This document shows positions 9,744 to 31,594 of a stretch of DNA of 32,363 nt, piece after piece (the first letter of the stretch is position 1; each line of letters opens with the position of its first letter). The stretch is taken from positions 1 to 32,363 of the forward strand of contig SMWD01000003.1 of assembly GCA_004357495.1 (NCBI GenBank), read 5' to 3'. A program made the position numbers and the translations under genes. Below the pieces are notes generated by a model. That model worked only from the letters and a program-made list of their open reading frames with translations, did not search any database and was not told where the DNA came from. This DNA is from Gammaproteobacteria bacterium (GTDB taxonomy: Bacteria > Pseudomonadota > Gammaproteobacteria > Steroidobacterales > GCA-2729495).

Positions 9744-9760
9744 CGTTGCGACCTCGATGG

Positions 9761-12268: not shown

Positions 12269-12269
12269 T

Positions 12270-13677: not shown

Positions 13678-16347
13678 ATGATAAACGGGTTGTTGGAAAG
13701 CCGTTCGAGCGCGTGGCGTTCGTCTGCACTGCTGATAATTATCGTGTGTGGCATCACTGCCTGCGGTAGCGGCGGTGGTGTGGATCTGGCCGGGGGCCAG
13801 GCGGCCGATCCGGTCGTGCTCGATGTCCCGATCGCCTATGTCAAGCGGCCGTTGCCCCTGGATGACCAGGGGAATGTCGAGCCGACCGATGCGCGCGAGC
13901 TGATCACGTTCGAGATCGGCGCTGATCTTTATGTTCGCGAGCGCGCGTCGCCGAGTGCCGCGGAGCGGAACATCACCGAGGGCATTACCGCCGGCCTGGG
14001 TGACGTGCGCGACCTCGAGGTCTCATACGACGGGTCCCGCGTGATCTTCGCGATGCGGGCGCAGTTCATCGAAAACGCCGATGAGGAAGATCAGCCGAAG
14101 TGGAACATCTGGGAGTATGACCTGGAGTTCGATGTGCTGACCCGGATCATGACGTCGGATATCACGGCCGAGGCCGGCCACGACGTGGCACCGTACTACC
14201 TGCCGGACGGGCGCATTGTTTTTTCTTCGACACGCCAGCGTCAGTCGAATGCAATCCTGCTGGACGAGGGCAAACCCCAGTTTTCCGCGCTTGACGAGAA
14301 TCGCGGCGAGTTCGCCTTCGTGCTGCACGTCATGAATGCCGATGGCAGCGATATCCACCAGGTGTCCTACAACCAGAGTCATGATCTGGACCCTGCCGTG
14401 CTCAGCGACGGGCGCATCGTGTTCACGCGCTGGGACAACATGGGCGGGCGCAACGCGATGCACCTATACACCATGAATCCGGACGGCACCGAACTGCAGT
14501 TGCTGTACGGTAAAAACAGCCACGCCACCGGCACGAACGGGGCGACAATTCAGTTTCTGCAGCCGCGCGAGATGAGCGACGGCCGCATGATGACGATTGT
14601 TCAACCGTTCCAGGTCGCCAGTCGCGGTGCCGATATCCGGATCATCGAGACGGCCGATTACCTCGAGAATGTCCAGGCCAACGCGGCCAACGCCGGCGTG
14701 CTGACCGGTCCGGCCCAGTCGTTCGCGACCATCAACGACGTGCGCACCGACGGCAGCGTGTCGCCGGGCGGCGTGTTCGGCTCGGCGTACCCGCTGTGGG
14801 ACGGCACCGAGCGGATGTTTGTCAGCTGGAGCCAGTGCCGGCTCGTCGACGCGGCAGAACTCGCCGCCGCGGTGCTGGATCCGGCACTGCTGCCGTTGCG
14901 TATTTTTCCGTGTACCGACGCGGACCTCGCCGACCCGGCCTTGGTCGAGGCAGACCCGCTGTTTGGCATCTGGATCTACGATCGGGCGAGCGATACCCAG
15001 TTGCCGGTCCTGCAGCCGGAAGAGGGCATTATTTATGCGGACGTGGTTGCCGCCCAGCAGCGTACCTTGCCGCCGGTGATTCACGATCAGGCAACCACCG
15101 GGGCGCTCGACCCGGCCCACGTCGATGCGGGTGTGGGCTTTATCAATATTCGCAGCATCTACGATCGCGATGGCGTGGATCAGGCGGCACCGGATATTCC
15201 GGCACTGGCCGATCCGGCGCAGACCACCGCGGACCAGCGCCCGGGGCGCTTCCTGCGGATCGTCAAAGCGGTGTCGATACCAGACGACGACGTGCGGGAT
15301 TTTGCCAATACGGCGTTCGGGCGCAGTGCCGGCCAAGGCATGCGCGAGATAATCGGTTACGTACCCGTCGAACCGGACGGATCGGTGTATGCCATGGTGC
15401 CCGCAAATATCCCGCTGGCCATCAGTGTGCTCAATGCGGCGGGCGAGCGCGTCACGCCGCGTCATCAGAGCTGGCTGCAGGTTCGCCCGGGCGAGACGCT
15501 CGAGTGTAACGGTTGTCATGAGAACAACACCGGGTTCTCGCACGGCCGGGCGGATGCGTTCGACAGCGCATACCCCGGCGCATTGGCCGACAGCCTGCCG
15601 TTTCCGAATACCGTATCGCTGTATTTCGCGGACTTCGGCGAGACGATGGCCGAGGCTCGCGCGCGTCTGAGCTGCGCGACGGACTGCGCCGAGATCATGC
15701 CGCGCGTCGATATCGTGTACGACGATGTCTGGACCGACGAGGTCGCGGCCGGTCGCGCCAGGGATGCGTCCGTTGCTTACCTGTACAACGATCTGACGAC
15801 GCCGGCGCCGGTGTCGGCGGCGTGTCAGGCCCAGTGGACACCGATCTGCAGAATCGTTATCCACTACGAGATGCATATTCACCCGCTGTGGGCCGAGCCG
15901 CGGCTCGCGCCGGACGGCATCACCGATGTGACCTGCACGGTGTGCCACAGCCCGGTCGATGCGATGGCCATGATCCGGGCGCCACTCGGGCAACTGGATC
16001 TGACGGATGGCCCGTCGGTCGAGGAGCCGGATCACCTGCGAGCCTATCGAGAGCTGCTGTTTCCGGACAACCAGCAATTTTTCGACCTCGCCACCGGCAC
16101 CCTGCAGGACGTCATGATCGAGATCGGCATCGATCCTGTGACCGGCGATCCGATTCTGCAGCCGGTCACCGTCGCCGCGTCGATGTCCGTCAACGGCGCG
16201 GTGTCGTCCGCGCCGTTCTTCAGTCGCTTCTCGGCAGGTGCATCGCATGCCGGCTATCTGAGCGGGGCCGAGCTGCGGCTGGTGGCCGAATGGCTCGATA
16301 TCGGTGGCCAGTACTTCAATAATCCGTTCGACGCGCCGATAAACTAG
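13678..16347 (+). CDS. HzsA-like protein: TolB/PD40-type beta-propeller plus two c-type heme sites, lipoprotein
   Basis: Lipobox-like GITACGSGG; propeller blades (LPDGRIVFSSTRQ, MNADGSDIHQVSYNQSHDLDPAVLSDGRIVFTRWDN, LYTMNPDGTELQLLYG); CNGCH (15505-15519) and CTVCH (15934-15948). Confidence 0.8.
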   Translation: MINGLLESRSSAWRSSALLIIIVCGITACGSGGGVDLAGGQAADPVVLDVPIAYVKRPLPLDDQGNVEPTDARELITFEIGADLYVRERASPSAAERNITEGITAGLGDVRDLEVSYDGSRVIFAMRAQFIENADEEDQPKWNIWEYDLEFDVLTRIMTSDITAEAGHDVAPYYLPDGRIVFSSTRQRQSNAILLDEGKPQFSALDENRGEFAFVLHVMNADGSDIHQVSYNQSHDLDPAVLSDGRIVFTRWDNMGGRNAMHLYTMNPDGTELQLLYGKNSHATGTNGATIQFLQPREMSDGRMMTIVQPFQVASRGADIRIIETADYLENVQANAANAGVLTGPAQSFATINDVRTDGSVSPGGVFGSAYPLWDGTERMFVSWSQCRLVDAAELAAAVLDPALLPLRIFPCTDADLADPALVEADPLFGIWIYDRASDTQLPVLQPEEGIIYADVVAAQQRTLPPVIHDQATTGALDPAHVDAGVGFINIRSIYDRDGVDQAAPDIPALADPAQTTADQRPGRFLRIVKAVSIPDDDVRDFANTAFGRSAGQGMREIIGYVPVEPDGSVYAMVPANIPLAISVLNAAGERVTPRHQSWLQVRPGETLECNGCHENNTGFSHGRADAFDSAYPGALADSLPFPNTVSLYFADFGETMAEARARLSCATDCAEIMPRVDIVYDDVWTDEVAAGRARDASVAYLYNDLTTPAPVSAACQAQWTPICRIVIHYEMHIHPLWAEPRLAPDGITDVTCTVCHSPVDAMAMIRAPLGQLDLTDGPSVEEPDHLRAYRELLFPDNQQFFDLATGTLQDVMIEIGIDPVTGDPILQPVTVAASMSVNGAVSSAPFFSRFSAGASHAGYLSGAELRLVAEWLDIGGQYFNNPFDAPIN

Positions 16348-16349
16348 CC

Positions 16350-17087
16350 ATGCAGTATCCCGCCGTCATCGTGCTTGCCTGTCTGTGCCTCGCCGCGCCG
16401 ACTTATGGCAAAGGTCGGCCATACGAGGTCGTGATCGCGGAACCCTATATCGAATTGCATACCGGCCCGGGCCGCGGTTACCCGATATTCAACCTCGCCG
16501 AGCGCGGCGAGAAGCTCGAGGTTCACACGCGCCGCACCGACTGGTTCAAGGTGCGTACCGAGCGGGGCATCGAGGGCTGGGTGTCGGCCGGGCAGCTGTC
16601 GCAGACCCTCGAGCCCGATGGCACGCCGACGGCGATTCGTGACCCGAGCCGCGAAGACTTCATCAAGCGTCGTCGCGAGGCAGGTTTCCAACTCGGCGAC
16701 CTGGACGGTGCCAATATTCTCACACTGTATGGCGCCTACTTGTTTACCGATAACCTGTCGCTCGAGATTTCCGCATCGGATATTACCGGCGATTTTTCGA
16801 GTGGCTGGATGCTCAGCGCCAGCCTGGTGCATCAGCCGTTCCCAGGCTGGTACGTGTCGCCGTTCTTTACGCTGGGTACCGGTGTGCTGCGCATCGAACC
16901 GAAGGCGACACTCGTACAGGCGGAGGATCGAACCGACCAGGAGGCGCATGTCGGCTTCGGGTTTCGCGCACATCTCGGTCGCCGGTTTCTGCTCCGGGCC
17001 GAATACAAGAGTTACGTCGTGTTTACGAAGAGAGACAGCAACGAGGAATTAGACGAATGGAAGGCGGGATTCGCATTTTTCTTTTAA
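16350..17087 (+). CDS. Bacterial SH3-domain protein fused to a C-terminal beta-barrel-like domain
   Basis: Signal peptide; SH3 motif YIELHTGPGRGYPIFNLAERGEKLEVHTRRTDWFKVRTERGIEGWV; alternating strands ending KAGFAFFF. Confidence 0.75.
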   Translation: MQYPAVIVLACLCLAAPTYGKGRPYEVVIAEPYIELHTGPGRGYPIFNLAERGEKLEVHTRRTDWFKVRTERGIEGWVSAGQLSQTLEPDGTPTAIRDPSREDFIKRRREAGFQLGDLDGANILTLYGAYLFTDNLSLEISASDITGDFSSGWMLSASLVHQPFPGWYVSPFFTLGTGVLRIEPKATLVQAEDRTDQEAHVGFGFRAHLGRRFLLRAEYKSYVVFTKRDSNEELDEWKAGFAFFF

Positions 17088-17728
17088 GGGTGACACTGGC
17101 CGCACTGGGTGTCATGTCCATTACCGGCTGCTTCGGCGGGCGCACGGTCATCGAGACTGCACCCGATGAGGGTGAGAGTGTCATTCAGCCGGAGGTTTCG
17201 CGCCGGGAAGCTGCGCCCGTGAAAATCGATGCCGACAATTTTGAGGTGGGCGCCTATTTCGGTCTGCTCAGCGTCGAGGACTTCGAGACGAATTCGACCT
17301 ACGGTGCGCGCCTGGCCTACCACATCAGCGAGGGCTTCTTCGTCGAGGGCACCTTCGGCCAAACCGATGTCGGCGAGACGAGTTTCGAGAAACTGAGCGG
17401 TGGCGCACCGCTTCTGACCGATGACCAGCGGACACTGACGTACTATGACTTGTCCATCGGCTACAACCTGTTGCCGGGCGAGGTATTTATCGGTCGCAAA
17501 CGAGCCTTTCCGAGTGCCTTGTACGTGGTGGTCGGCGCGGGCAACACCAATTTCGCCGATGATGATTTCTTCACGCTGGTGCTGGGCGCGGGCTATCGCA
17601 TGCTGCTGACCGACTGGCTGGCGCTGCGGGTTGACGTGCGTGACCGGTTGTTTGATTCGGACCTGCTCGGCGAGGACAAGACGACCCACAACTTCGAGTT
17701 CAATATTGGCCTGAGTGGTTTCTTCTGA
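17057..17728 (+). CDS. Outer membrane beta-barrel protein with lipobox-like signal
   Basis: VMSITGCFGG; YGARLAYHISEGFFVEGTFGQTDVG...YYDLSIGYNLLPGEVF...GAGYRMLLTDWLALRVDVRD...FNIGLSGFF (C-terminal Phe); overlaps preceding gene by 31 nt. Confidence 0.75.
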   Translation: MEGGIRIFLLRVTLAALGVMSITGCFGGRTVIETAPDEGESVIQPEVSRREAAPVKIDADNFEVGAYFGLLSVEDFETNSTYGARLAYHISEGFFVEGTFGQTDVGETSFEKLSGGAPLLTDDQRTLTYYDLSIGYNLLPGEVFIGRKRAFPSALYVVVGAGNTNFADDDFFTLVLGAGYRMLLTDWLALRVDVRDRLFDSDLLGEDKTTHNFEFNIGLSGFF

Positions 17729-18251
17729 GGATCGATTCATGATGTTACGCACAAAAGCTTGCCGGTTTTCACTGCCCGGTGCCGTCATCGCCTGCGTACT
17801 GCTTGCGCCGGCGTGGGCCGACGACGCTGAGCCGGCGCCGGATTTCACGCTGAATGACGCCCATGGCAATGCCGTCAGTCTCAGCGATCTGAAAGGCCAG
17901 GTGGTCATGATCAACTTCTGGGCGAGCTGGTGCGGCCCGTGCCGGCAGGAGATGCCGCTGCTCGAGCAGATTCATCGGAAGTACGCGCCACTCGGCTTCA
18001 CGCTGCTTGGCATCAACGTCGAGGAAAATTCCGCCGACGGGCAGGCATTCCTGAAACAGCGCCCGGTCAGCTTCCCGGTCTTGTATGACCCGGAGAATGG
18101 CATCAGCAAATTGTATGACGTCGTCGCCATGCCCAGCACGGTGCTCATTGATCGTCGGGGCAATGTGCGTTACCTGCATCACGGCTATAAGCCGGGATAC
18201 GAGACGGACTACATGGATCAGATTCGCGCCTTGTCGAGAGAGCGGGGATGA
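17715..18251 (+). CDS. TlpA/ResA-family thioredoxin-like protein
   Basis: Signal peptide; APDFTLNDAHGNAVSLSDLKGQVVMINFWASWCGPCRQEMPLLEQI; AMPSTVLIDRRGNV. Confidence 0.92.
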   Translation: MVSSEDRFMMLRTKACRFSLPGAVIACVLLAPAWADDAEPAPDFTLNDAHGNAVSLSDLKGQVVMINFWASWCGPCRQEMPLLEQIHRKYAPLGFTLLGINVEENSADGQAFLKQRPVSFPVLYDPENGISKLYDVVAMPSTVLIDRRGNVRYLHHGYKPGYETDYMDQIRALSRERG

Positions 18252-18472
18252 GTCTCAAGCCTGCACTGATGCTGCTCCTGTTCGCTGTGGCCGCGACCGG
18301 CTGCGCCGTCGAGCCGTGGGTCAAACCCTATGAGCGCGACCGCCTTGCCGATCCCATCATGTTGCTCGATCGGGATCCCGTGTCCGCCGCGTATATCAAC
18401 CACGTGCACGAAGCGCGCGAGGGTGCGCGTGGCGCGGCGGGCAGCGCCGGCGGCGGGTGTGGCTGTAACTAG
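18248..18472 (+). CDS. DUF4266-like small lipoprotein with GGGCGCN tail
   Basis: LLLFAVAATGCAVEPWVKPYERDRLADPIMLLDRDPVSAAYINHVHEAREGARGAAGSAGGGCGCN; sits between TlpA and DUF3570. Confidence 0.82.
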   Translation: MSLKPALMLLLFAVAATGCAVEPWVKPYERDRLADPIMLLDRDPVSAAYINHVHEAREGARGAAGSAGGGCGCN

Positions 18473-18476
18473 CCTG

Positions 18477-19655
18477 ATGAGCATGCCGGCACATCGATGG
18501 TGGTTGCTCGTCGCGCTGGTCGCAGGGTTCGCTGCGGCGCGCGCGGGCGTGTTGCCCGAGGACCGCGCCGATGTGCTGTATCACTACTACGACGGTGACA
18601 ACGTCCAGATCGATGGCCCGTCACTGCTGGTACGCAAGAACATTCGCGAAACCGTCTCGCTGTTCGCCAACTACTACGTCGACAGCATCAGCAGTGCGTC
18701 GATCGATGTCGTCACAACAGGTGCGAGCCGATACGAGGAAGAGCGGAAAGAATACAGCGTTGGTCTGGATTATCTGCACGACGATACGATCATGAGTATC
18801 GCGTTTACGGACAGCAACGAGAACGACTACAAGGCACAGTCGCTGAACATCAGCGTTTCGCAGGATATCTTCGGCGGCCTGACAACGGTGACGATGGGCT
18901 ACGGGCGAGGCTCGGATGACATCTTCCGCAACGGTCCCGACGGCCAGCCGGACGGGATTTTCCATGAGCAGGCCGACCGACGTAACTATCGGCTGAGCGT
19001 GACCCAGGTCATCACGCGCAACTGGTTGCTGGGCCTGTACTACGAAGCCATCACCGACGAGGGTTGGCTGAACAATCCATATCGCCAGACTCGCTTCCTC
19101 GACCCGGGCTCGTCCACCGGCTACTCGTTCCAGCCGGAGATCTATCCCGGTACGCGCTCGAGTAACGCGATCGCATTCAATATGCGCTATCACTTGCCGT
19201 ATCGTGCCGCCGTGCACGGCGGCTACCGGTTCTTCACGGATGATTGGGGCATCGACGCGCACAACTTCGATATCGGCTACACGCATCCGCTGCAGGAAGC
19301 CTGGATTCTGGACATCAGCTATCGCTTCTATACACAGAGCAAGGCCGATTTTTTTTCGGACCTGTTTCCATTTCAGGATTCGCAGAACTTTCTGGCGCGG
19401 GACAAGGAATTATCGACCTTCGTCAGTCACGCGCTTCGGTTCGGAGCCACCTACAACCTGCTCAGGGACGGCTGGAAGTTCCTTGAGAAGGCCAGCGTCA
19501 ACGTCCATTATGATCATATTATTTACGACTACGATGACTTCCACGACCTGCGGTTCAGGGACGAGAACGGCGCGCCGCTGTTTTCGCCCGGGCAAGAGCC
19601 ATTGTTCGATTACTCGGCCGACGTGATCCAGTTATATTTTTCAGTCTGGTTCTGA
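18477..19655 (+). CDS. DUF3570-like outer-membrane protein
   Basis: ORF open from 18330; ATG 18477 gives signal peptide; RADVLYHYYDGDNVQIDGPSLLVRKNIRETVSLFANYYVDSISSASIDVVTTGASRYEEERKEYSVGLDYLHDDTIMSI; C-terminal IQLYFSVWF. Confidence 0.83.
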   Translation: MSMPAHRWWLLVALVAGFAAARAGVLPEDRADVLYHYYDGDNVQIDGPSLLVRKNIRETVSLFANYYVDSISSASIDVVTTGASRYEEERKEYSVGLDYLHDDTIMSIAFTDSNENDYKAQSLNISVSQDIFGGLTTVTMGYGRGSDDIFRNGPDGQPDGIFHEQADRRNYRLSVTQVITRNWLLGLYYEAITDEGWLNNPYRQTRFLDPGSSTGYSFQPEIYPGTRSSNAIAFNMRYHLPYRAAVHGGYRFFTDDWGIDAHNFDIGYTHPLQEAWILDISYRFYTQSKADFFSDLFPFQDSQNFLARDKELSTFVSHALRFGATYNLLRDGWKFLEKASVNVHYDHIIYDYDDFHDLRFRDENGAPLFSPGQEPLFDYSADVIQLYFSVWF

Positions 19656-19770
19656 CGGACGCCGGGGGCTGGCTTGATTCGTTTATTCACTCACGGGTGC
19701 TGGTGCCGGTGCCCGGTTGCGAATAAGCTGACCAGACCATGACCGCTACCGTTATCCGCTGAGTTCGCAG

Positions 19771-20775
19771 ATGCTCAGGTGCTCGATACCCGCACCGCGC
19801 CTGCTGGTGGGCTTGCTCATGCTGGGTGTTTTGCCGGCCGCCCACGGCGACTGGTTTTCCGATGCGCAGGATAAAATGGGCACGCGCGTCGAGATCGAGC
19901 TGTGGCACGACGATGCGGCCGAAGCCAGGCGCCTGATCGCCGCGGGCATGGCCGAGTTCGACCGGATCGAGAGCGCGATGAGCACGTATCGCGCTGATTC
20001 GGAAATTACGCGCATCAATGAGCAGGCGGCTGCCGGCCCGGTCGTCGTCGGTGATGAATTATTCGCTCTGATTGCGCGCGCGCTGGCGTTGTCCGCGACC
20101 ACGGAGGGTGCATTCGACATCACTTACGACAGCGTCGGCCAACTCTATGACTACCGTCTGAACCGGAGGCCGGACGAGCCGGAAATCAATGCGCACCTGT
20201 TGACGATCGACCACCGGTTTGTCGAGCTCGACGTTGCGGCATCGACGATACGTTTCGCGCGTGAGGGGGTGCGCATCAATCTCGGCGGAATCGCGAAGGG
20301 TTATGCCTGCGAGGCTGTGATCGCATTACTGAAAGAACGTGGTGTAACCCATGCGCTGGCGACGGCCGGCGGCGATACGCGCCTGCTCGGCGACCGCGGC
20401 AACGGGCCGTGGATCGTTGGCATCCGCGATCCGGACGACAAAGCCGGGCTGATCACGCGTCTGGCGCTCGCCAATGAGGCGGTGTCGACCTCCGGCGATT
20501 ACGAGCGCTTTTTCATCGAAGACGGGGTTCGCTATCACCACATTCTCGACCCGTCGACCGGCAAGTCGGCGGGAGAGCTGCGCAGTGTCACCATCGTCGG
20601 CCCCGATGCGACGATGACGGACGGGCTGTCGACCAGCGTGTTCGTGCTCGGTGCGCAGGCAGGCCTCGAGTTGATCGAGCGTCTGCCGGACTACGAGGCG
20701 ATCATCATCGATGCTTCCCGCCGCGTGCAGTTCTCGACCGGCCTCGCCGCACAGCAGGCGCGTCGCGCCGATTGA
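19771..20775 (+). CDS. apbE: FAD:protein FMN transferase (ApbE family), exported
   Basis: Signal peptide; MGTRVEIELW, ESAMSTYRADSEITRIN, INLGGIAKGYACEAV, ATAGGDTRLLG, VSTSGDYERFF, HILDPSTGKSA. Confidence 0.95.
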   Translation: MLRCSIPAPRLLVGLLMLGVLPAAHGDWFSDAQDKMGTRVEIELWHDDAAEARRLIAAGMAEFDRIESAMSTYRADSEITRINEQAAAGPVVVGDELFALIARALALSATTEGAFDITYDSVGQLYDYRLNRRPDEPEINAHLLTIDHRFVELDVAASTIRFAREGVRINLGGIAKGYACEAVIALLKERGVTHALATAGGDTRLLGDRGNGPWIVGIRDPDDKAGLITRLALANEAVSTSGDYERFFIEDGVRYHHILDPSTGKSAGELRSVTIVGPDATMTDGLSTSVFVLGAQAGLELIERLPDYEAIIIDASRRVQFSTGLAAQQARRAD

Positions 20776-21000
20776 CATAATCCGTGTAACCCGTCCGGAC
20801 TCCGGGTAATTCATCCGCTTGAGCGGGATGCGTCGCCCGGATGCGTGACTCTGATCACAGGATTCGCCGGGCCGTGCTGCGACCATTATCTTCGCATGCG
20901 AAATTGACGCGAGCGTTGCGTTCGTGACCGGGTCGTATGCCGGGTGTGGTTGTCGGTCGTTTCTCGTTGAGCGGCCAGGTGTGAACCGGAAAATACGCTG

Positions 21001-21534
21001 TTGTCGCGAGTGTTAAATAGTTTTTGTCGGTCTGACCGGCTGCGCGTGGTCTGCTGCGCGCTGCTCTTGCTGGCACTGCCGTGCGCGGCCGCTGCGGCGA
21101 AGCTCGCTGTCAATGAGCCGGCGCCGGACTTTGCGCTGAAGAGTTCCACGGGCAAGAATTTGCGGCTCAGTGAGTATCGCGGTGATGTCGTACTGCTGAA
21201 CTTCTGGACGCAATCCTGCGGGCGTTGCCGAGAGCAACTCGATCGACTCGAATCACTCTTCCAGGCACATCGCAATACGGGCTTCATGGTCATCAGCGTC
21301 GCGGTGGTCGATCAGCCCCGTCATGCGCAGGAGATCGCCGACCGCCTTAATTTGAGTTTTCCGATCTGGTACGACGAACGGAAGGCGGCCGTACAACTGT
21401 ACGACCCGCGCACCATGCCGCTGACGGTGCTGATCGATGCGCACGGCCGGGTGCGGGAGATCCATACGGGCTACCGCCGCGGCGACGAGGCGACGTACGC
21501 CGAGCAACTGCTCGCGTTGCTGGCCGAAGAATAG
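21001..21534 (+). CDS. Second TlpA/ResA-like thioredoxin protein (CGRC)
   Basis: APDFALKSSTGKNLRLSEYRGDVVLLNFWTQSCGRCREQLDRLESLF; TTG start (in-frame GTG at 21010 is an alternative). Confidence 0.87.
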   Translation: MSRVLNSFCRSDRLRVVCCALLLLALPCAAAAAKLAVNEPAPDFALKSSTGKNLRLSEYRGDVVLLNFWTQSCGRCREQLDRLESLFQAHRNTGFMVISVAVVDQPRHAQEIADRLNLSFPIWYDERKAAVQLYDPRTMPLTVLIDAHGRVREIHTGYRRGDEATYAEQLLALLAEE

Positions 21535-21537
21535 AAG

Positions 21538-22083
21538 GTGACAGTCATGACCGAAGGTTCCCGAAATTTGTGCGCCATGGTGCTCGGCATCCTGATGTTC
21601 ACATTGCCGACGGCGGTGTTTGCTGTCGATGGAGCTTCGCGGAGCCTGGATGCCGAAGTACAGGCGCTGAAGGGTGCCGTGCTGGATCTGAATCGCGAGT
21701 TGTTCATGCTCGAGGAAGAGCTGCTGTACCCGGCGAACACGCAGGTTGCCGTGTTCCTGTCGCTGGACATCGGTGAGTTTTTTGCACTCGACTCCGTACA
21801 GCTCAAGGTAGACGGCAAGGAAGTCAGCAACTATCTCTACACCGAACGCGAGGTACAAGCACTGCATCGTGGTGGTGTGCAGCGCTTGTTCCTCGGCAAC
21901 CTGAAGACCGGTCCGCACGAGATCGTAGCCATCTTCACCGGCATCGGTCCGCACGGGCGCGATTATCGGCGGGGTGCGAAGCTCGACTTCGACAAGGGCA
22001 TCGGCGCGAAATTCGTCGAGCTGCAGATTTCCGACCGGGTCAGCAAGCAACAGCCCGAGTTCATGGTCTCGGAGTGGGAATAG
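21538..22083 (+). CDS. Uncharacterised secreted protein of the TPR/ExbBD operon
   Basis: Signal peptide, short coiled region (SLDAEVQALKGAVLDLNRELFMLEEELLYP), beta-rich remainder; 3 bp after upstream gene. Confidence 0.75.
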   Translation: MTVMTEGSRNLCAMVLGILMFTLPTAVFAVDGASRSLDAEVQALKGAVLDLNRELFMLEEELLYPANTQVAVFLSLDIGEFFALDSVQLKVDGKEVSNYLYTEREVQALHRGGVQRLFLGNLKTGPHEIVAIFTGIGPHGRDYRRGAKLDFDKGIGAKFVELQISDRVSKQQPEFMVSEWE

Positions 22084-22086
22084 GCA

Positions 22087-23970
22087 TTGCTGCGACTCCG
22101 TCGAAAATTCGTTCCGGGGTTGCTTCTGATCGCACTGACCCTGACCGGTGGCCACGCATATGCGTGGGGCAAGGCGAAAGATCAGGGAACGACGATCCGG
22201 GACCCGTATTACGGTGAGGTCTTGTTCCACTTCTATCAGCAGGATGACTTTACCGCGCTGACCCATCTGCTGGCTGCCCGTCAGGCCGGCCGCGTCACGC
22301 ACCACGCCGCCGATGCCGAGCTGCTGCTTGGCGGTTTGTATCTCGCCTACGGTCAGCATGCGGACGCCGCCGAAATTTTCACTCGCCTGTTGGCCGAGAG
22401 CGATGATTCGCTGGTACGCGATCGGGTCTGGTTGTATATCGGCAAGGCGCATTATCAGCGCGGCCGGTATCGCGAGGCCGATCACGCGTTTGCGAAAGTT
22501 GGCGACGATCTGCCGGTCTGGCTGGCTTCGGAACATCGCATGCTCAGTGCGCAGAGCCTGATGGCGCAGGGACGGTTCGGCAAGGCCGCTGCATTGCTCG
22601 GCAGCTGGGACGGCGCCGGGAGCTGGTTCGCGTATGCGAATTTCAATCTTGGCGTGGCCCTGGTGCGCACCGGCCAGATTAATGAAGGTGGGGCCCGGCT
22701 CGCCGCAGTCGGGCAGATCGACAGCGACGACCCTGCGCTCATTGCCTTGCGCGACAAGGCCAACCTCGCGCTGGGCTATGCCTACCTGCAGGCCGAACGG
22801 CCCGGGCAGGCCAAGGCGGTGTTGCAGCACGTGCGCCTGCAGGGGCCGTCCTCGAACAAAGCCCTGCTCGGCATCGGCTGGGCCGATGCGCTGCGTGCAG
22901 ATTATCGCGGTGCACTGACCCCATGGCTCGAACTTCAGCAGCGTGATCTGCTGGACAGCGCCGTGCAGGAATCGCTGCTCGCGGTGCCCTATGCATTTAC
23001 ACGTCTCGGCGCGAACGGTTCGGCCGCCGAGTATTACGTTGCCGCGATGGCAGATTTCGACAACGAACTTGCCGATCTCGACGCGGCTATCGCGCGGGCT
23101 CGTTCCGGCGAGCTGGTGCGCTCGCTGCTCGCGCATGACGAACAACAGCTCGGTCGCTGGCACTGGAATCTCGCCGTGTTGCCCGAGACCGACGATGCGC
23201 GTTACCTCTATCACCTGATCGCGAACCATCCGTTCCAGGACGGCTTGCGCAGCTATCGGGATCTCCTCGCGTTACGCGCGCATGTGGCCGAATGGCAGCA
23301 GAAGCTCGCGACCTATGAAGACATGGTGGCGACGCGCCGCCTGGCCTACGAGCAGCGCCTCCCAGCCGTCGCAGCGCGAATGGAACAAGTGAACGTGACC
23401 GGGCTGACGGCGCGCCGCGACGCACTCGCGTCGCGCCTGGCGCGCATCGAGGCGGAGCGCGATGTCGTGGGCCTGGCGCAGAATCGCGAGGCGCAGCTCT
23501 GGCGTGACGTGACGGCCCTTGAATCGCATCTTGCATTCAATCGTGAAGAGGGCGCCGGCGCGCGCAGCAAACAGCGGATTCTGAAGGGCACGCTGCTGTG
23601 GCGATTCGACACCGAATATCGCTATCGGCTCTGGCAGCAGAAGCGCGAGTTGGCCGAGCTCGATGGGGAACTGGAACGCGCCCGCAGCTACGAGGCGCGC
23701 GTGCTGGAGGCACGCGTACAGATGCCGCTGCGACTGTCAGAGTATGCGCACCGAATCGCGATGCTCGCGCCACGGCTCGATTCGATGCAGACGCGCATCA
23801 CGCTGGCGCTCGGAGAGCAGGAAGACCAGCTTGCGGTGGTGGTTGCCGGCGAGCTCGAGGCGCAGAAGTCGCGCCTCGCCAGCTACCGGGTACAGGCGCG
23901 GTTCGCGCTGGCGACGATCTACGACCAGGCGACCGTCGTGTCCAATCAGGATGTCGGGGGTGACCCGTGA
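22087..23970 (+). CDS. TPR / coiled-coil periplasmic protein
   Basis: TTG start, signal peptide; TPR-like LLLGGLYLAYGQHADAAEIFTRLLAE, YIGKAHYQRGRYREADHAFAKV; coiled-coil C-terminal half. Confidence 0.8.
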   Translation: MLRLRRKFVPGLLLIALTLTGGHAYAWGKAKDQGTTIRDPYYGEVLFHFYQQDDFTALTHLLAARQAGRVTHHAADAELLLGGLYLAYGQHADAAEIFTRLLAESDDSLVRDRVWLYIGKAHYQRGRYREADHAFAKVGDDLPVWLASEHRMLSAQSLMAQGRFGKAAALLGSWDGAGSWFAYANFNLGVALVRTGQINEGGARLAAVGQIDSDDPALIALRDKANLALGYAYLQAERPGQAKAVLQHVRLQGPSSNKALLGIGWADALRADYRGALTPWLELQQRDLLDSAVQESLLAVPYAFTRLGANGSAAEYYVAAMADFDNELADLDAAIARARSGELVRSLLAHDEQQLGRWHWNLAVLPETDDARYLYHLIANHPFQDGLRSYRDLLALRAHVAEWQQKLATYEDMVATRRLAYEQRLPAVAARMEQVNVTGLTARRDALASRLARIEAERDVVGLAQNREAQLWRDVTALESHLAFNREEGAGARSKQRILKGTLLWRFDTEYRYRLWQQKRELAELDGELERARSYEARVLEARVQMPLRLSEYAHRIAMLAPRLDSMQTRITLALGEQEDQLAVVVAGELEAQKSRLASYRVQARFALATIYDQATVVSNQDVGGDP

Positions 23971-26840
23971 ACGTCGGTGTGCTGGCCACGGTGTACGGCA
24001 TCACCCTGATGGGTGGCCTGTGGCCGTTCGGCAGCGACAACCGGCCCGAAGATACGCAGGCGACGATCGGCAGCCTCGCCGCGCACGAGATCGACTTGCA
24101 GACGACGCCGGTCGTGCCGGGTGGCGCCGCGGCGGCGCGCGATCAATATCGCGAGTTCCTGGCGATCTCGAAGGATAACCCGGCTCTGCAGAGGGAAGCG
24201 ATGCGGCGTCTCGGCGATCTGAACCTCGCGGCGGGCGAGGATGAGGAGATCGAGCTCGGCCCCGAGGCCGCGGCCGGCTATTACGCCGAGGCCGTGCAGT
24301 TGTATACGGCGTTGCTCGCAGCGAATCCCGATCATCCCGACACCGACAAGATTTTGTATCAACTGGCGCGTGCGTACGAGACGATCGGCGCGGCGGACAA
24401 GGCGCTGGACATCCTCGATCGACTGGTGGCCGGCTATGCCGACAGCCGGTTTTTCGACGAGGCGCAGTTTCGGCGCGGCGAGATTCTGTTCGTCCGCAAG
24501 GATTTCCCGGCGTCCGCGGTGGCCTATGCCGCCGTGGTTGCCAGCGGCGCCGGTTCGACTTATTACCAGCAGTCGCTATACAAGCACGGCTGGGCGATGT
24601 TCAAGCGCAGCCGCTACGAGGCGAGTTTGAATTCGTTCATGACCTTGCTCGATGTCCGTCTTGGCGATGCTGCGGACGCCGGCGCGGCACTGCAGGCTAT
24701 GTCGCGCGCGGAGCGTGAGTTACTGGATGATGCGTTTCGGGTGCTGGCGATCTCGTTGGCTTATCTCGATGGCCACACCTCTTTGAATGGATTGCTTGAC
24801 CAATGGGGACTCGACCGGCGGGGAGCCGAGCTGCGTGGCCCGGATGAACGTGCACCGGCTGGGCGCGGTGACCCGGCTTACGTGGGTCTGCTGTACGCGG
24901 CGCTTGGCGACCTCTACCTCGACCAGGAACGCTATCAGGATGCCGCCAATACCTATGCCGCGTTCGTCGCACGCATGCCGACCGACGCGCGCGCGCCGGC
25001 AATGCAGGTGCGGGTTATCGAGGCCCTGACGCTGGCAAAATTTCCGAGCCTCGTGCTGGAGGTGAAGCGCGATTACATCGACCTGTATGGGTTGCACAGC
25101 GCATTCTGGGCCGGCCGGATGGTGGCGGACTGGAGCGGCGTCGTCGACCAGTTGAAGATGCATCTGACCGATCTGGCCAGCTATGATCACGCGCAAGCGC
25201 AGGCCGATGATAATGCGGCGGCCTATGCGCGTGCGGCCGACTGGTACCACCGGTTTATTGCCTATTTTCCGGATGATCCGGATTCTGCAGCGCGAAACTA
25301 TCTGCTCGCCGACATCTGGTTCGAGCTCGAGCGATATGGCCAGGCGAACACCGAGTACCTGCGCACGGCCTACGACTATGGCCCGCACGAGCAGGCGGCG
25401 GCGGCCGGCTTCGCGGCATTGCTGTCGGCCGAACACCATGCAGAGATGCTCGAGGGCGCGGCGCTGGTCGTATGGCATACGCAGTCGCTCGATAATGCGT
25501 TGCGTTTCGCACGCACGTTCCCCGGGCACGAGCAGGCAGCATCGGTGTTGACCCATGCCGCCGAGGAATTTTTCCGCAGCGGCGCGACCGAGCGCGCGAT
25601 CGAGGTGGCCGGCCGGGTCGTCACGTTACAGCCGCCGGCGTCAATGCAGCTCGAACGCACGGCATGGACCGTGATCGCGCACGCAAATTTCGACCTCGCC
25701 CGATTCGCACCGGCCGAGCGAGCGTATGAGCGTCTGTTGCTGATGCCGCTGGCCGCGGGCATCGAGCGTTCGGACTATGCGGAACGCGTTGCGGCCACTG
25801 TCTATCGTCAGGCCGAGCAGGCGCAGGCTGCGGGCGATGTCGATCTTGCCGTCGCCCAGTTTCTGCGGGTTGCGATGGTTCAGCCAACGTCACCATTCGT
25901 CGCGAACGCCCTGTACGACGCCGGCACACTGTTGCTTGCGAATCAGCGTTGGGGTGAAGCGGTCGATGTTCTTGAGCGGTTCCGTGCTGCTTTCCCGGCA
26001 CACCGGTTTAACGACGACGTCACGCAGAAACTGGCTGTCGCGTATCAGTCATCCGGCCAGCACGGCCGTGCCGCAGCCGAATACGAACGCGTCGCGAGCT
26101 TTGCCGACGCGGATCCGGAACTGCATCGCGAGGCCCTGTGGCAGGCGGCCGACCTGTACGAGCTACAGGGTTCGCGCGCGGATCAGCGTCGTGTCTATGC
26201 ACAGATCGTTGCCCGCTTCCCGACCCCGTTCGGTGAGTCGCTGGAGGCGCAATACAAGCTGGCCAATCTGGCCAGGGAGTCGAACGACTGGGCCGATCGG
26301 CAGCAATGGCTGGCCGCAATCGTCGCGGCTGACGCCGGGGCCGGCGCGGCCCGCAGTGCGCGCAGCCGGACGCTGGCAGCACAGGCCAGGCTCGAACTCG
26401 CAGCCCCGGCGCGTGACGCCTTCCGGACGGTCAAGCTGACGATTCCGCTGAAGAGCAGTCTGAAGCTTAAAAAAGCCCGCATGGAGGCTGCGCTGGCCGC
26501 CTACGGCCAGGCAGCCGACTACGGTATCGCCGCGGTGACGACCGCGGCGAGCTTCGAGATTGCCGATTTGTACTACGTGCTGAGCCAGGACCTGATGAAC
26601 TCGGAGCGGCCGAAGGAGTTGTCCGCGGACGAACTCGAGCAGTATGACATTCTGCTCGAGGAGCAGGCGTTCCCGTTCGAGGAGCAGGCGATCGATATTT
26701 TCAAATCCAACGCGTCGCGGGCCAGCGACGGTGTGTACGACGAATGGGTAAAGAGGAGTTTTGCGCGGCTGGCAGAGTTGCTGCCGTTCCGTTACGCGAA
26801 ATCCGAGAGGAGCGAGCGCTTTGTTGCGGCACTGGATTAA
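23967..26840 (+). CDS. Large TPR-repeat protein (957 aa)
   Basis: GTG start overlapping upstream stop by 4 nt; repeated TPR helices (ILYQLARAYETIGAADKALDILDRLVAGYADSRFFDEAQFRRGEILF, YVGLLYAALGDLYLDQERYQDAANTYAAFVARMP). Confidence 0.88.
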   Translation: MNVGVLATVYGITLMGGLWPFGSDNRPEDTQATIGSLAAHEIDLQTTPVVPGGAAAARDQYREFLAISKDNPALQREAMRRLGDLNLAAGEDEEIELGPEAAAGYYAEAVQLYTALLAANPDHPDTDKILYQLARAYETIGAADKALDILDRLVAGYADSRFFDEAQFRRGEILFVRKDFPASAVAYAAVVASGAGSTYYQQSLYKHGWAMFKRSRYEASLNSFMTLLDVRLGDAADAGAALQAMSRAERELLDDAFRVLAISLAYLDGHTSLNGLLDQWGLDRRGAELRGPDERAPAGRGDPAYVGLLYAALGDLYLDQERYQDAANTYAAFVARMPTDARAPAMQVRVIEALTLAKFPSLVLEVKRDYIDLYGLHSAFWAGRMVADWSGVVDQLKMHLTDLASYDHAQAQADDNAAAYARAADWYHRFIAYFPDDPDSAARNYLLADIWFELERYGQANTEYLRTAYDYGPHEQAAAAGFAALLSAEHHAEMLEGAALVVWHTQSLDNALRFARTFPGHEQAASVLTHAAEEFFRSGATERAIEVAGRVVTLQPPASMQLERTAWTVIAHANFDLARFAPAERAYERLLLMPLAAGIERSDYAERVAATVYRQAEQAQAAGDVDLAVAQFLRVAMVQPTSPFVANALYDAGTLLLANQRWGEAVDVLERFRAAFPAHRFNDDVTQKLAVAYQSSGQHGRAAAEYERVASFADADPELHREALWQAADLYELQGSRADQRRVYAQIVARFPTPFGESLEAQYKLANLARESNDWADRQQWLAAIVAADAGAGAARSARSRTLAAQARLELAAPARDAFRTVKLTIPLKSSLKLKKARMEAALAAYGQAADYGIAAVTTAASFEIADLYYVLSQDLMNSERPKELSADELEQYDILLEEQAFPFEEQAIDIFKSNASRASDGVYDEWVKRSFARLAELLPFRYAKSERSERFVAALD

Positions 26841-27486
26841 TCAGCTCGGTTCGCGGCGGGTCGTCCTGGTCATGGCGTTGGCGATCGGCGCGCTGGCCGG
26901 CTGTGGCGGATCGCAGCCGCAGACCAGGGCCGCCGGCGGGGCCGTCGTTGTCGAGTATCCCGCCGATGCAAGCACACGCTATGCGCGCGCACTCGGGTTC
27001 ATGGATTCGGGCGCGGACGAGCGCGCCGTGATCGAATTCGAGCGAGTCATCGGCACTTATCCGGACTATGCGGGGCCACACGTCAACCTCGCCATTATCC
27101 ACGCACGCAGCGGTCGGCCGGATGCGGCCATGCTTTCGTTACAGCGTGCCATAGCAGTGTGTTCGGACTGCGCGGCGGCCTACAACCAACTCGGTATCTG
27201 GCAGCGTCAGCGCGGCTTGTTCGCGGCGGCCGAACAGTCGTACCTCACGGCGATCGAGTCGAATCCGGATTATGCACTCGCCTATTTTAATCTTGGCGTG
27301 CTGTACGACCTGTACCAGGATCGACCGGATCTCGCGCTGCAGTACTACGAAGGATTTGCCCAGCGGCGTCGACCCGGCGCGATCGATAAGCAGGACGTCG
27401 TCGACAAATGGATCATCGATCTGCGCCGCCGCGTGGGCGAGCCGCAGCGCGCGGCGTTCACAATGCACAGGCAGGTCGGGCCATGA
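26821..27486 (+). CDS. TPR lipoprotein
   Basis: TTG start; lipobox IGALAGCGGS; ALGFMDSGADERAVIEFERVIGTYPDYAGPHVNLAIIHARSGRPDAAMLSLQRAIAVCSDCAAAYNQLGIWQRQRGLFAAAEQSYLTAIESNPDYALAYFNLGVLYDL. Confidence 0.87.
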   Translation: MLRHWINQLGSRRVVLVMALAIGALAGCGGSQPQTRAAGGAVVVEYPADASTRYARALGFMDSGADERAVIEFERVIGTYPDYAGPHVNLAIIHARSGRPDAAMLSLQRAIAVCSDCAAAYNQLGIWQRQRGLFAAAEQSYLTAIESNPDYALAYFNLGVLYDLYQDRPDLALQYYEGFAQRRRPGAIDKQDVVDKWIIDLRRRVGEPQRAAFTMHRQVGP

Positions 27487-27869
27487 GTATCGCCGGGCGA
27501 GCAGCCTTCGTGAGCCTGGTCCTGTTGCTGTCCGGCGGACTGCGCGCCGGGGAGATCGTACCCGCATGGCCGGAAGTGGATGCGGCGCCGGCAGCGGAGG
27601 AACCGGTCGAGCGCCCGGAGGCCACCGGGCAGCGCTACCTGACGGACCGGATGGAGCTCGAGACGACATTGATCCGCGGCAACCAGGAGCTGCCCCGGGT
27701 GCTGTACATCGTGCCCTGGAAAGATCCGTCACTCGGCAGTCTCGCCGGAAAACCGGTCAACAGCCTGATCGATGAGGTGCTGGCACCTCTGGACCGTGAC
27801 GTATTCCTGAGACAAACGAAGTATTTCGATCAATTGTATGGCGCTCCCGAGAGAGAGGTTCGGGAGTAA
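27483..27869 (+). CDS. Uncharacterised secreted protein of the TPR/ExbBD operon
   Basis: ATG at 27483 overlapping upstream stop by 4 nt; signal peptide MSIAGRAAFVSLVLLLSGGLRAGEI. Confidence 0.75.
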   Translation: MSIAGRAAFVSLVLLLSGGLRAGEIVPAWPEVDAAPAAEEPVERPEATGQRYLTDRMELETTLIRGNQELPRVLYIVPWKDPSLGSLAGKPVNSLIDEVLAPLDRDVFLRQTKYFDQLYGAPEREVRE

Positions 27870-27946
27870 TGCGAACACGGCTGCTGCGTGTTCGATTATG
27901 TAAAGACATTGTTGTTTAGTCTGGCGTTCGGAGGAGGGCGGCGGTT

Positions 27947-28600
27947 ATGGATATGTTTGCAAGCGCGATTGGATTTTTTCAGAACGGCGGGTTTTTCATG
28001 TATCCCATCGTGGTGGTATTGGCCGTCGGGCTGGCGATATCGCTCGAGCGGTATTTCTATCTGAGCAAGACCAGCGTGACCAACCGGATGGTCTGGAACA
28101 AGATCACGCCGTATATCAAGGCGGGAAAGTTTCAGGAAGCTGCGTCGGTTACCGAGAAGTCGAAGAGCGCGGTCGGCCAGATCCTGAGCTACGGCCTGTA
28201 TCGCATCAAGGGCGCCGCGCGCCGTGATGATATCGAGAAGGCAATGGAAGAGAGCCTGATGGAGGTCATGCCGCGTCTCGAGAAACGCACGCATTACCTC
28301 GCGACGTTCGCGAACATCGCTACCTTGCTCGGCCTGCTCGGCACGATTATCGGCCTGATTCGTGCGTTCACGGCCGTGTCGGCTGCGAACCCGGCCGAGA
28401 AAGCCGACCTGTTGTCGGCCAGTATCTCGGTCGCGATGAACACGACGGCATTTGGCCTGATGGTGGCGATTCCGTTGCTGCTGATGCACACCGTGTTACA
28501 GAGCAAGACCACGGAGATCGTCGACAGTCTCGAGATGGTTGCCGTCAAGTTCCTGAATGCCGTCGACGAGTGCCGTCGCGGCGCGCAGAAGACCGCATGA
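27947..28600 (+). CDS. MotA/TolQ/ExbB-family proton channel protein
   Basis: GGFFMYPIVVVLAVGLAISLERYFYL; FANIATLLGLLGTIIGLIRAFTAV; LLSASISVAMNTTAFGLMVAIPLLLMHTVLQSK. Confidence 0.95.
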   Translation: MDMFASAIGFFQNGGFFMYPIVVVLAVGLAISLERYFYLSKTSVTNRMVWNKITPYIKAGKFQEAASVTEKSKSAVGQILSYGLYRIKGAARRDDIEKAMEESLMEVMPRLEKRTHYLATFANIATLLGLLGTIIGLIRAFTAVSAANPAEKADLLSASISVAMNTTAFGLMVAIPLLLMHTVLQSKTTEIVDSLEMVAVKFLNAVDECRRGAQKTA

Positions 28601-29109
28601 GACGCCAGTGGCGCAGGCGCCACCGTCCCGAGGCGGTGGAGCTCAATATCACCGCCTTCATGAATTTGATGGTGATACTGGTGCCGTTTCTGCTGATCAC
28701 GGCGGTGTTCTCGCAGGTCGCGATCCTGGAGCTGACGCTGCCGTCCGCCAACGATCAGCCCGGGGTCGACGATCCTCTGACCCTGCAGCTCGAGGTCATT
28801 GTGCGCCCGACCCGACTCGAAGTCGGTGAGCGTAACCGTGGCCTGCTGACCAGTCTGCCGATGACCGAAGACGGCCAATACGACTACGCAGCGCTGCGCG
28901 ACACCCTGAAGCGGATCAAGGCGAAATATCCGGACAAGCTCGACGCCAGCATCCTGCTCGAGCCGGACATCGAATACGACGTACTCGTGCAGGTCATGGA
29001 TACCGTCCGGCTCTACGAGGCGGTCGACGCCGGCGCCGGGGTCATCAAGGCAGAACTGTTCCCGGAAATTTCGATCGGCGATGCGCCGGTGCTGGCGCAG
29101 GAAGGCTAA
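28597..29109 (+). CDS. ExbD/TolR-family protein, TM Asp replaced by Asn
   Basis: VELNITAFMNLMVILVPFLLITAVFSQVAILELTLPSAND; ATG 28597 overlaps upstream stop by 4 nt. Confidence 0.9.
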   Translation: MRRQWRRRHRPEAVELNITAFMNLMVILVPFLLITAVFSQVAILELTLPSANDQPGVDDPLTLQLEVIVRPTRLEVGERNRGLLTSLPMTEDGQYDYAALRDTLKRIKAKYPDKLDASILLEPDIEYDVLVQVMDTVRLYEAVDAGAGVIKAELFPEISIGDAPVLAQEG

Positions 29110-29111
29110 CG

Positions 29112-29648
29112 ATGCTGATGTCGCAACGCGCCAGGCGCATGCAGCGTCGCAATGACAAGGGCAAAAAGGCAGTTGCCCTGAATCTCGTGTCGCTGATGGA
29201 TATTTTCACCATCCTCGTATTCTTCCTGCTGGTGAATTCGGGGCAGGTCGAAGTGCTGCCGAACGCGAAGGACATTACGTTGCCACAATCGGTGGCCGAG
29301 CAGAAAGCGCGTGAGACCGTCATCATTACCGTGACCGGTGATGACATTCTCGTGCAGGGCCGGGCCGTGGCCCGCGTCAGTGACGTGCTGGCGCAGCCGG
29401 ACATGGTCATCGCGGGCCTCGAAGCCGCGCTGCGCAGCCAGAGCGACCGCGTTTTGCGAGCAGACACGCTCAGCAAAATCGAGGACCGCGAAGTCACGAT
29501 CATGGGTGACAAGGCATTGCCCTATAAATTATTGAAACGCGTCATGGCGACCTGCATGGCGGCGGACTATGGGCAGATCTCGCTGGCGGTCATGCGCAGG
29601 TCCGATTCGATGCAGGCAGCGGCCGCCACGCTTGGGGCGCAGGGCTAG
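29112..29648 (+). CDS. ExbD/TolR-family protein, TM Asp retained
   Basis: VALNLVSLMDIFTILVFFLLVNSGQVEVLPNAKDITLP. Confidence 0.92.
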   Translation: MLMSQRARRMQRRNDKGKKAVALNLVSLMDIFTILVFFLLVNSGQVEVLPNAKDITLPQSVAEQKARETVIITVTGDDILVQGRAVARVSDVLAQPDMVIAGLEAALRSQSDRVLRADTLSKIEDREVTIMGDKALPYKLLKRVMATCMAADYGQISLAVMRRSDSMQAAAATLGAQG

Positions 29649-29650
29649 GC

Positions 29651-30592
29651 ATGGCAGCGGTTATTCAATATCGAACCTATGCACTGGCCTGGGATTTCGC
29701 CCGGGAAGATGGCGATCGATTGCGCAGGATCACCAGGAAGGTATTCACCGCAACGTTCGTCCTCACGGTGCTGCTGTCGCTGTTGCCGATTCCCGAAGTG
29801 GATCACACCGACGCGGACCGCATTCCGCCGCGCTTCGCCCGGCTGATTCTGGACCAGCCAAAGCCGCCGCCACCGCCGCCGGTCGTGCAGGCGACGCCCG
29901 AGGAGCCCAGGCTCGTCGAGCAGAAGAAGCCTGAACCCCTCGTCAAGAAAAAGCCCGAGCCGAAACCGATCGACAAGACGAAGGAGGCGCGCAAGAAGGC
30001 CTCCGTCGCGGGCCTGCTGCCGTTCGCCGACGACCTGGCGGAGCTGCGCGATAACCGGGCCATCGCGAGCGTCAAGACCGATCGCGAGCTCGCGGGCGCG
30101 GCCGGCGAGGCGCAGCGGGCCGAGCGCTCGATGATTACTTCGAAGGCAGGCAAGGGCAGCGGCGGCATCAACACGGCCGCGATGAGCCGGGACACCGGCG
30201 GCGCGGGCCTGGATACCGATATGGCGACGACGGCCGTATCGAGTACGGTCGCCGGCCTTCAAGCCGCATCGACGCTCAGGCGACCCGACGCGATCGGGGC
30301 GCCGGCCCGCAGTCGCGAAGAGATCGAGATGATCTTCGATCAGAACAAGGGTGCGATCTACGCGTTGTACAACCGCGCGCTGCGTCGCGATCCGACCCTG
30401 CAGGGCAAGATGGTCCTGAGGCTGACGATCGAGCCGTCGGGCGCGGTCTCGATGTGCGAGGTCGTGTCGAGCGAGATCGAAGACGAGGAAATGCAACGCA
30501 AGCTGATCAAGCGCATCAAGCTGTTCCGATTCGAGCAGAAGGACGTCGCGCGAATCACCACGACAAAGCCGATCGACTTCTTCCCGGCGTAA
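29651..30592 (+). CDS. TonB-like protein with AgmX/PglI-type C-terminal domain
   Basis: One N-terminal TM, Pro-rich linker QPKPPPPPPVVQ...KKPEPLVKKKPEPKPIDK; C-terminal IFDQNKGAIYALYNRALRRDPTLQGKMVLRLTIEPSGAVSMCEVVSSEI. Confidence 0.88.
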   Translation: MAAVIQYRTYALAWDFAREDGDRLRRITRKVFTATFVLTVLLSLLPIPEVDHTDADRIPPRFARLILDQPKPPPPPPVVQATPEEPRLVEQKKPEPLVKKKPEPKPIDKTKEARKKASVAGLLPFADDLAELRDNRAIASVKTDRELAGAAGEAQRAERSMITSKAGKGSGGINTAAMSRDTGGAGLDTDMATTAVSSTVAGLQAASTLRRPDAIGAPARSREEIEMIFDQNKGAIYALYNRALRRDPTLQGKMVLRLTIEPSGAVSMCEVVSSEIEDEEMQRKLIKRIKLFRFEQKDVARITTTKPIDFFPA

Positions 30593-30856: not shown

Positions 30857-31594
30857 ATGATTAATTCTTCGCCGCCAGAGCGACTGGCAATCGCATTTGT
30901 GGCCATGATCGCGCTGCTTGCTTTCGGGACGGTTAATGCTGCGACCGTGACGCTGAACTTTGACACCAGTTTCGGGGACCCGCTTGATACGGAGACCCAA
31001 GCGCCGGAGGGGCCGACGCCGTGGTTCACGGCGGAATTCGTCGATTCAGCCCCAGGGGAGGTCGAGTTGGTGATGACGGTATCGGGGGCGGTCGGCGTCG
31101 CCGACGTGACGGATATATATTTCAATCTCGATCCCGTTATGGATGCGACCGATCTGACGTTCACGCGCACCGGCGGAACGGGACCAACCGCGGCAGACAC
31201 GGCGATCAGTACGGGTACCGACGCTTTTCAGGCGGATTCAGACGGACTCTACGACATTCTGTTCGACCTTCCGCCACCACCGGGTAGCAACTCAAAGAGG
31301 TTTAATGCGGGCGAGACGCTCGAGTACACGATCATCGGTGCAGCATCTGCTGCTGCATTGACGGCGAGTTCATTCAATTTCCTGTCGACGCCCCAGGATC
31401 CACCGAATGACAACGGACCGTTCCTGGCCGCGGCGAAATTTGGTTCTACCGGCACCGCCGGTAACTGCCTGGGTGGAGAGGGCGCGTGTAGTGACTGGAT
31501 CGCAGCGACGCCGATACCGATTCCCGCGGCGGCGTGGCTGTTCGGCAGTGCCTTGGGGCTGCTTGTCTGGACGCGTCGGCGCCGCAGCGCCTGA
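30857..31594 (+). CDS. VPLPA/PEP-CTERM-like sorting-domain secreted protein
   Basis: Signal peptide (ALAFGTVNA) and C-terminal IPIPAAAWLFGSALGLLVWTRRRRSA tripartite signal. Confidence 0.85.
   Translation: MINSSPPERLAIAFVAMIALLAFGTVNAATVTLNFDTSFGDPLDTETQAPEGPTPWFTAEFVDSAPGEVELVMTVSGAVGVADVTDIYFNLDPVMDATDLTFTRTGGTGPTAADTAISTGTDAFQADSDGLYDILFDLPPPPGSNSKRFNAGETLEYTIIGAASAAALTASSFNFLSTPQDPPNDNGPFLAAAKFGSTGTAGNCLGGEGACSDWIAATPIPIPAAAWLFGSALGLLVWTRRRRSA

Follow-up and report, generated by a model that had tools for sequence, protein, structure and literature searches.

Why should genes for a heme, flavin and thiol redox set be strung, almost without interruption, onto genes for an Agl/Glt-type trans-envelope motor? 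The question is raised by a 32,363-nucleotide (nt) stretch of DNA, hereafter the window, from a Gammaproteobacteria bacterium (Steroidobacterales; GCA-2729495; assembly GCA_004357495.1, contig SMWD01000003.1). On its plus strand, 17 genes follow one another from 13678 to 30592, the majority overlapping or separated by a few base pairs; the widest gap measures 225 nt (20776–21000), and the tight packing described in an earlier sequence-only reading is borne out by the gene coordinates. No joint description of the redox and motor blocks was found in the open-access literature. The array and its families are more than a chance assembly, as co-occurrence and synteny extend over ~30 families, and the coupling of the two blocks is well supported. 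That they form one envelope system, with a redox complex of the outer membrane that the motor would move, assemble or energise, is a reading to which we give about even weight.

The coupling is most directly seen in the distribution of two markers: the HzsA-like di-heme lipoprotein that opens the array (HZS) and U181, an exported protein of the motor block. The class sample comprised 350 gammaproteobacterial genomes, drawn evenly, with 1 to 3 genomes for each carrier family, and was searched with two independent queries (HZS at ≥52 bits; strong U181 at ≥145 bits). HZS was present in 47 genomes and strong U181 in 55. All 47 HZS genomes have U181; in the reverse direction, 47 of the 55 strong-U181 genomes carry HZS, and both markers occur in 27 of the 29 families concerned (Fisher p = 2e-50, a value uncorrected for phylogeny or shared ancestry). 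Congruent with this, an order sample of 147 genomes, scored for HZS_alpha, DUF4266 and AgmX, contained all three markers in 71 genomes, none in 58 and a mixture in 18. In one mixed case (G082) TPR2 lies at a contig end, and AgmX is probably missing through the contig break; three others are genomes with joint losses described below. Carriers are few in the phylum sample, where four genomes reach 52 bits for HZS (G000, G284, G491, G663), all four with U181, and a fifth (G651) has a weak HZS match 10.6 kb from U181. Weaker HZS matches without U181 occur in five genomes (G466, G211, G445, G345, G479), within open reading frames (ORFs) of 1000–1800 aa that look like another subfamily. The 80 loci used for neighborhood comparison were retrieved via U181 and are thus biased towards the motor, and the hidden Markov models (HMMs) that label them were built from loci of the same study; the class and order searches, being independent queries, are free of the retrieval bias. 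Together, the survey found near-universal co-occurrence of the blocks rather than the independence that would have spoken against a joint system. Among the records carrying the locus are two metagenome-assembled genomes (MAGs) titled Halobacteria archaeon (L148) and Janthinobacterium lividum (L113), probably mislabelled or contaminated bins.

The two blocks are also physically close. HZS and U181 lie <15 kb apart in 33 of the 47 HZS genomes of the class sample, and the HZS–DUF4266 spacing is 2.5–4 kb almost everywhere. Block orders vary but the blocks stay together: some loci share the order of the window, in others the motor adjoins a heme trio (L072, L174, L182), and in one all lie side by side (L181). 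This trio, on the minus strand of the window (8109–13514), encodes a mono-heme c-type cytochrome (cyt415; 12270–13514, CxxCH at residue 267), a LamG-domain lipoprotein with two conserved CxxCH motifs (9761–12268; residues 77 and 198; Laminin_G_3, 72 bits) and a twin-arginine translocation (Tat) signal protein with conserved twin arginines (D1501; 8109–9743). In relatives it either stays beside HZS or immediately precedes the motor block, on the same strand as the motor. The earlier delimitation of the locus therefore stands for the plus-strand array and falls short of the complete unit, to which the divergent trio also belongs.

Two kinds of event further tie the blocks together. In the window's own family (f1), four genomes (G041, G052, G077, G111) lack HZS, DUF4266 and an intact TPR2 jointly; AgmX survives as remnants of 114 residues in G052 and 35 in G077, and is intact, at a contig end, in G041. 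In another family (f7) the locus is split, with 592 kb between the blocks in the single-contig genome G065. The breakpoint falls between DUF3570 and ApbE. On one side of it, the motor operon begins with ApbE and a thioredoxin; on the other, DUF3570 has kept its place with HZS, the barrels and two members of the heme trio, the third being outside the retrieved stretch. The motor-block ApbE of f7 is 53–56% identical to that of the window and is likely its orthologue, as compared with 33–34% for the ApbE of a second DUF3570 cluster. Because ApbE flavinylates DUF3570 and sits across the split, the two blocks share an enzyme–substrate pair. L070 and L071 are such second, distant DUF3570/ApbE/thioredoxin clusters of general type in f7. 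A restart of the operon within the 225-nt gap, which the sequence-only reading had named as a finding that would count against it, was rejected: promoter- and terminator-like sites were looked for at 20776–21000 and none is there, the region as a whole has such matches at no higher rate than shuffled sequence, and relatives break elsewhere, between DUF3570 and ApbE.

What, then, does the redox block encode? Families were assigned by Pfam and NCBIfam HMM searches of the window proteins, with scores compared to model cut-offs, and the named families of the array are supported by scores above them. Export signals, lipoboxes and transmembrane segments were judged by eye from the translations, nearly all of which show one. 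HZS (13678–16347) bears a lipobox, PD40 beta-propeller repeats, an HZS_alpha middle domain (60.5 bits, cut-off 26.6) and two CxxCH motifs, as does HzsA (PDB 5C2V; non-anammox homologues, PMC12758564). Both CxxCH motifs are kept among relatives, and His857 aligns with the distal His772 of HzsA heme αII. Unlike in HzsA, the counterpart of Tyr591, the proximal ligand of heme αI, located four residues past the CxxCH histidine, is a non-conserved Thr618, and neither HzsB nor HzsC was recognised within the locus. Since this ligand of the active-site heme is absent and the protein scores 51.7 bits on the equivalog model NF052339, with a cut-off of 800, a hydrazine synthase function was rejected; the label "HzsA-like" holds for family membership and fails for enzymatic identity. 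Across HZS, the LamG protein and cyt415, the heme motifs total five. Two outer-membrane beta-barrels follow HZS: the conserved SH3omp (16350–17087; SH3_3 above and OMP_b-brl slightly below cut-off) and OMPm (17057–17728; OMP_myx_plus, TIGR04565, 172 bits, cut-off 60).

The next genes constitute a flavin and thiol module. Thioredoxin 1 (17715–18251; TlpA/ResA-like, WCGPC; AhpC-TSA, Redoxin) overlaps the gene of a DUF4266 lipoprotein (18248–18472; PF14086, 78.7 bits, cut-off 27), which is read in a different frame from the ORF at 18085 and ends in a C-terminal CGC found in 25 of 25 homologues. DUF3570, a predicted flavinylated beta-barrel (18477–19655; PF12094, 137 bits, cut-off 25), probably starts at ~18477 rather than 18330 and carries SSAS and TGAS close together, a double [ST]xA[ST] pattern likewise retained in 25 of 25 homologues. 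The ApbE flavin transferase (19771–20775; PF02424, 270 bits) and thioredoxin 2 (21001–21534; TlpA/ResA-like, CGRC; AhpC-TSA), which moves with the motor block, complete the set; DUF4266, DUF3570, ApbE and thioredoxin thus all exceed Pfam cut-offs within one cluster. Flavinylation of DUF3570 by ApbE has been shown for a Chlorobium pair, and 316 ApbE–DUF3570–DUF4266–thioredoxin clusters without DsbD have been reported (Meheust et al., 2021, PMC8238504). The window resembles them in its four components, the two [S/T]xA[S/T] motifs of DUF3570, the CxC of DUF4266 and the lack of DsbD. It differs in that the module is joined to HZS, other heme proteins and a Glt-type motor, and in that its DUF4266 bears a PYER/REGARGA signature of its own.

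The motor block brings together an ExbB, a pair of ExbD proteins, three TPR proteins and a TonB-like protein, with U181 and U128 in addition. The ExbB/TolQ/AglR-type proton channel (27947–28600; PF01618, MotA_ExbB, 105 bits) is followed by ExbD1 (28597–29109; PF02472, 55 bits) and ExbD2 (29112–29648; 61 bits). At the transmembrane Asp position of TolR/ExbD, ExbD1 has an Asn in most loci (ITAFMNLM in the window), whereas ExbD2 keeps the Asp (LVSLMDIF); in a minority among L032–L069 (L037, L039, L043, L049, L067, L068, L069), both carry Asp. TPR protein 1 (22087–23970; TPR_19) and the 957-aa TPR protein 2 (23967–26840; TPR and YbgF-like matches) occupy the GltC/D/E position in the same operon, together with TPR lipoprotein 3 (26824–27486; TPR_11), which is weakly GltE-like (40.8 bits, cut-off 225). 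The AgmX/PglI-type energy-transducing protein (29651–30592) passes NF033768, the model of the AgmX/PglI C-terminal domain (65 bits, cut-off 40), reaches 35.5 bits of the 650 required by the full GltG model, and has no match to the FHA domain in HMM searches, unlike Myxococcus GltG, which has one. U181 (21538–22083), modeled by AlphaFold2 as a helix plus beta-sandwich (predicted local distance difference test, pLDDT, 87.5), gave no confident match in a PDB fold search; neither it nor U128 (27483–27869), a small exported protein with an ELPkVlyIVPWk motif conserved in core loci, has a Pfam match or any other family hit.

Apart from U181 and U128, this composition equals that of the AglRQS-GltCDEG core, which is reported to be conserved and linked in Gammaproteobacteria, to be of unknown function there, and to include one extra gene without a Myxococcales homologue (Luciano et al., 2011, PMC3169522). 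The single-region ExbB, two ExbD, three TPR proteins and TonB-like protein are shared in kind, the TPR proteins being putative counterparts of GltC, D and E; what differs is the addition of U181 and U128, either of which may be that extra gene, and the coupled heme/flavin/thiol module, unmentioned in the main text of that study. The Agl/Glt-like parts list of the sequence-only reading accordingly survives as a match to the seven-gene core but not at the equivalog level of GltE and GltG. The motility-specific Group A genes of the gliding machine (gltA, B, F, H, I, J and K, besides MglA) are reported as confined to Myxococcales and Bdellovibrionales (PMC3169522). Of 75 redox-associated copies in a tree of U181, TPR2, ExbB and AgmX, 73 group in a single clade (support 0.87), and the redox label requires 3 changes on the tree, compared with 15 on average after shuffling. 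The cores of the two outliers, L168 (G193) and L180 (G491), may have been recruited separately or have evolved fast. Nine-gene Glt-type cores that stand alone, with a more divergent U181 and without redox genes nearby, were also collected (L152–L165, L185), and three genomes (G006, G222, G282) harbor both the redox-linked and the standalone type.

How might the two blocks work together? The sequence-only reading had the motor exporting, positioning or powering the redox system, and we infer localisation, electron path and the direction and chemistry of the coupling in the same conditional spirit. An inner-membrane proton channel of ExbB, ExbD1 and ExbD2 would drive AgmX as a TonB-like arm, which would act on the barrels SH3omp and OMPm by way of the TPR proteins, U181 and U128; the barrels may in turn hold a complex of the heme lipoproteins, made up of HZS, the LamG di-heme protein and cyt415, or move it. 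ApbE would load the DUF3570 barrel with flavin mononucleotide (FMN), and the thioredoxins together with the CxC lipoprotein DUF4266 could reduce FMN-DUF3570, providing a possible electron route. By analogy, precedent would be found in the Agl-Glt and Agl-Nfs machines of M. xanthus, which act in gliding and spore coat formation, respectively, as surface transport machines (PMC3858216). They share the proton channel, TonB-like protein, TPR proteins and outer-membrane barrel partners, unlike the window in that their parts list is without redox genes. A bolder formulation, that the proton motive force here drives a trans-envelope motor devoted to a heme/flavin/thiol redox complex of the outer membrane, coupling mechanical energy to surface redox chemistry in a kind of system undescribed before, and hence what one gammaproteobacterial Glt-core clade does, is offered tentatively and with less confidence than the single envelope system itself.

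Several observations weigh against such a system. Other Gammaproteobacteria possess the same nine-gene core among housekeeping neighbors and without redox genes, so the core needs no redox partner in general. Core-bearing genomes without HZS exist (family f50; G010), and because at least G428 and G010 retain DUF3570, thioredoxin and the barrels in its absence, HZS is not indispensable. None of the proteins of the locus is a transmembrane electron donor of the DsbD kind. The carriers are mostly MAGs, the co-occurrence statistic carries its phylogenetic caveat, and likeness to the Myxococcus Glt proteins was gauged via NCBIfam models only, all below equivalog cut-offs. The redox-free cores also lend themselves to an inverted relationship, with the redox genes working for the machine: DUF4266, ApbE, the thioredoxins and the heme proteins would mature or repair outer-membrane parts of a Glt-like complex with another job, such as adhesion or surface transport. 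Thioredoxin 2 and ApbE can indeed occur in the motor operon, and SH3omp and OMPm persist without HZS (G130, G010, G428). Yet maturation does not call for as much as five conserved heme motifs, flavinylation motifs and a Tat protein, and the standalone cores lack these redox genes, leaving this role unlikely.

Equally unlikely is a surface polymer system: the LamG protein would bind a polysaccharide, which the sulfatase-like Tat protein and the heme proteins would modify or oxidise, and the motor would transport the polymer or take it up. A LamG domain is present, and D1501 has a putative alkaline-phosphatase/sulfatase-like (DUF1501-like) fold and is kept in the locus. Similar combinations of a cytochrome, a LamG domain and a sulfatase-like protein are co-encoded in planctomycete-type PSCyt/DUF1501/LamG clusters, a carbohydrate role has been proposed for the PSCyt/LamG/sulfatase clusters of Verrucomicrobia (PMC5615132), and polymers are moved by Agl-Glt/Nfs (PMC3858216). 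The fold match is weak, however: the top PDB matches of the AlphaFold2 model of D1501 (pLDDT 78) are all sulfatases, phosphatases or related at E ≥ 2e-3, its profile found nothing among PDB sequences, and Pfam searches returned neither a match for D1501 nor DUF1501 in the trio. Unlike in the planctomycete-type clusters, the PSCyt3 and PSD2 similarity of cyt415 (DUF1588/DUF1585) is sub-threshold (13.1 bits, cut-off 27, and 15.3 bits, cut-off 25.8, respectively), and the host locus is gammaproteobacterial and Glt-linked. HMM scans of the locus also revealed no glycoside hydrolase, sulfatase or TonB-dependent receptor. Least probable of all, and very much so, are two independent modules co-inherited in a common niche without mechanistic contact, for although the p-values are uncorrected and the blocks are unlinked in f7, none of the 47 HZS genomes lacks the core, the blocks have re-associated repeatedly in differing orders, f7 places ApbE and its substrate in separate blocks, and f1 lost both blocks jointly.

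Two further features of the window lie outside the conserved unit. The protein encoded by 30857–31594, just 3′ of AgmX, shows a PEP-CTERM/VPLPA-CTERM sorting signal below threshold and is not conserved among the loci seen. At 1396–2913 stands the gene of a Wzi-like capsule assembly protein (265 bits); a methyltransferase-like gene and a two-component pair come after it, and this group was not seen in related loci.

The Glt core of Gammaproteobacteria, recognised in 2011, has been lacking a function, as the DUF3570/DUF4266 flavinylation clusters, recognised in 2021, have lacked a settled role. Their near-obligate pairing in one core clade, alongside an HzsA-like heme lipoprotein, gives both a testable role, and suggests that lineages such as Woeseiaceae and Steroidobacteraceae MAGs share an envelope system that is conserved. 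If the motor does act on the redox complex, proton-driven force would be tied to extracellular redox chemistry.

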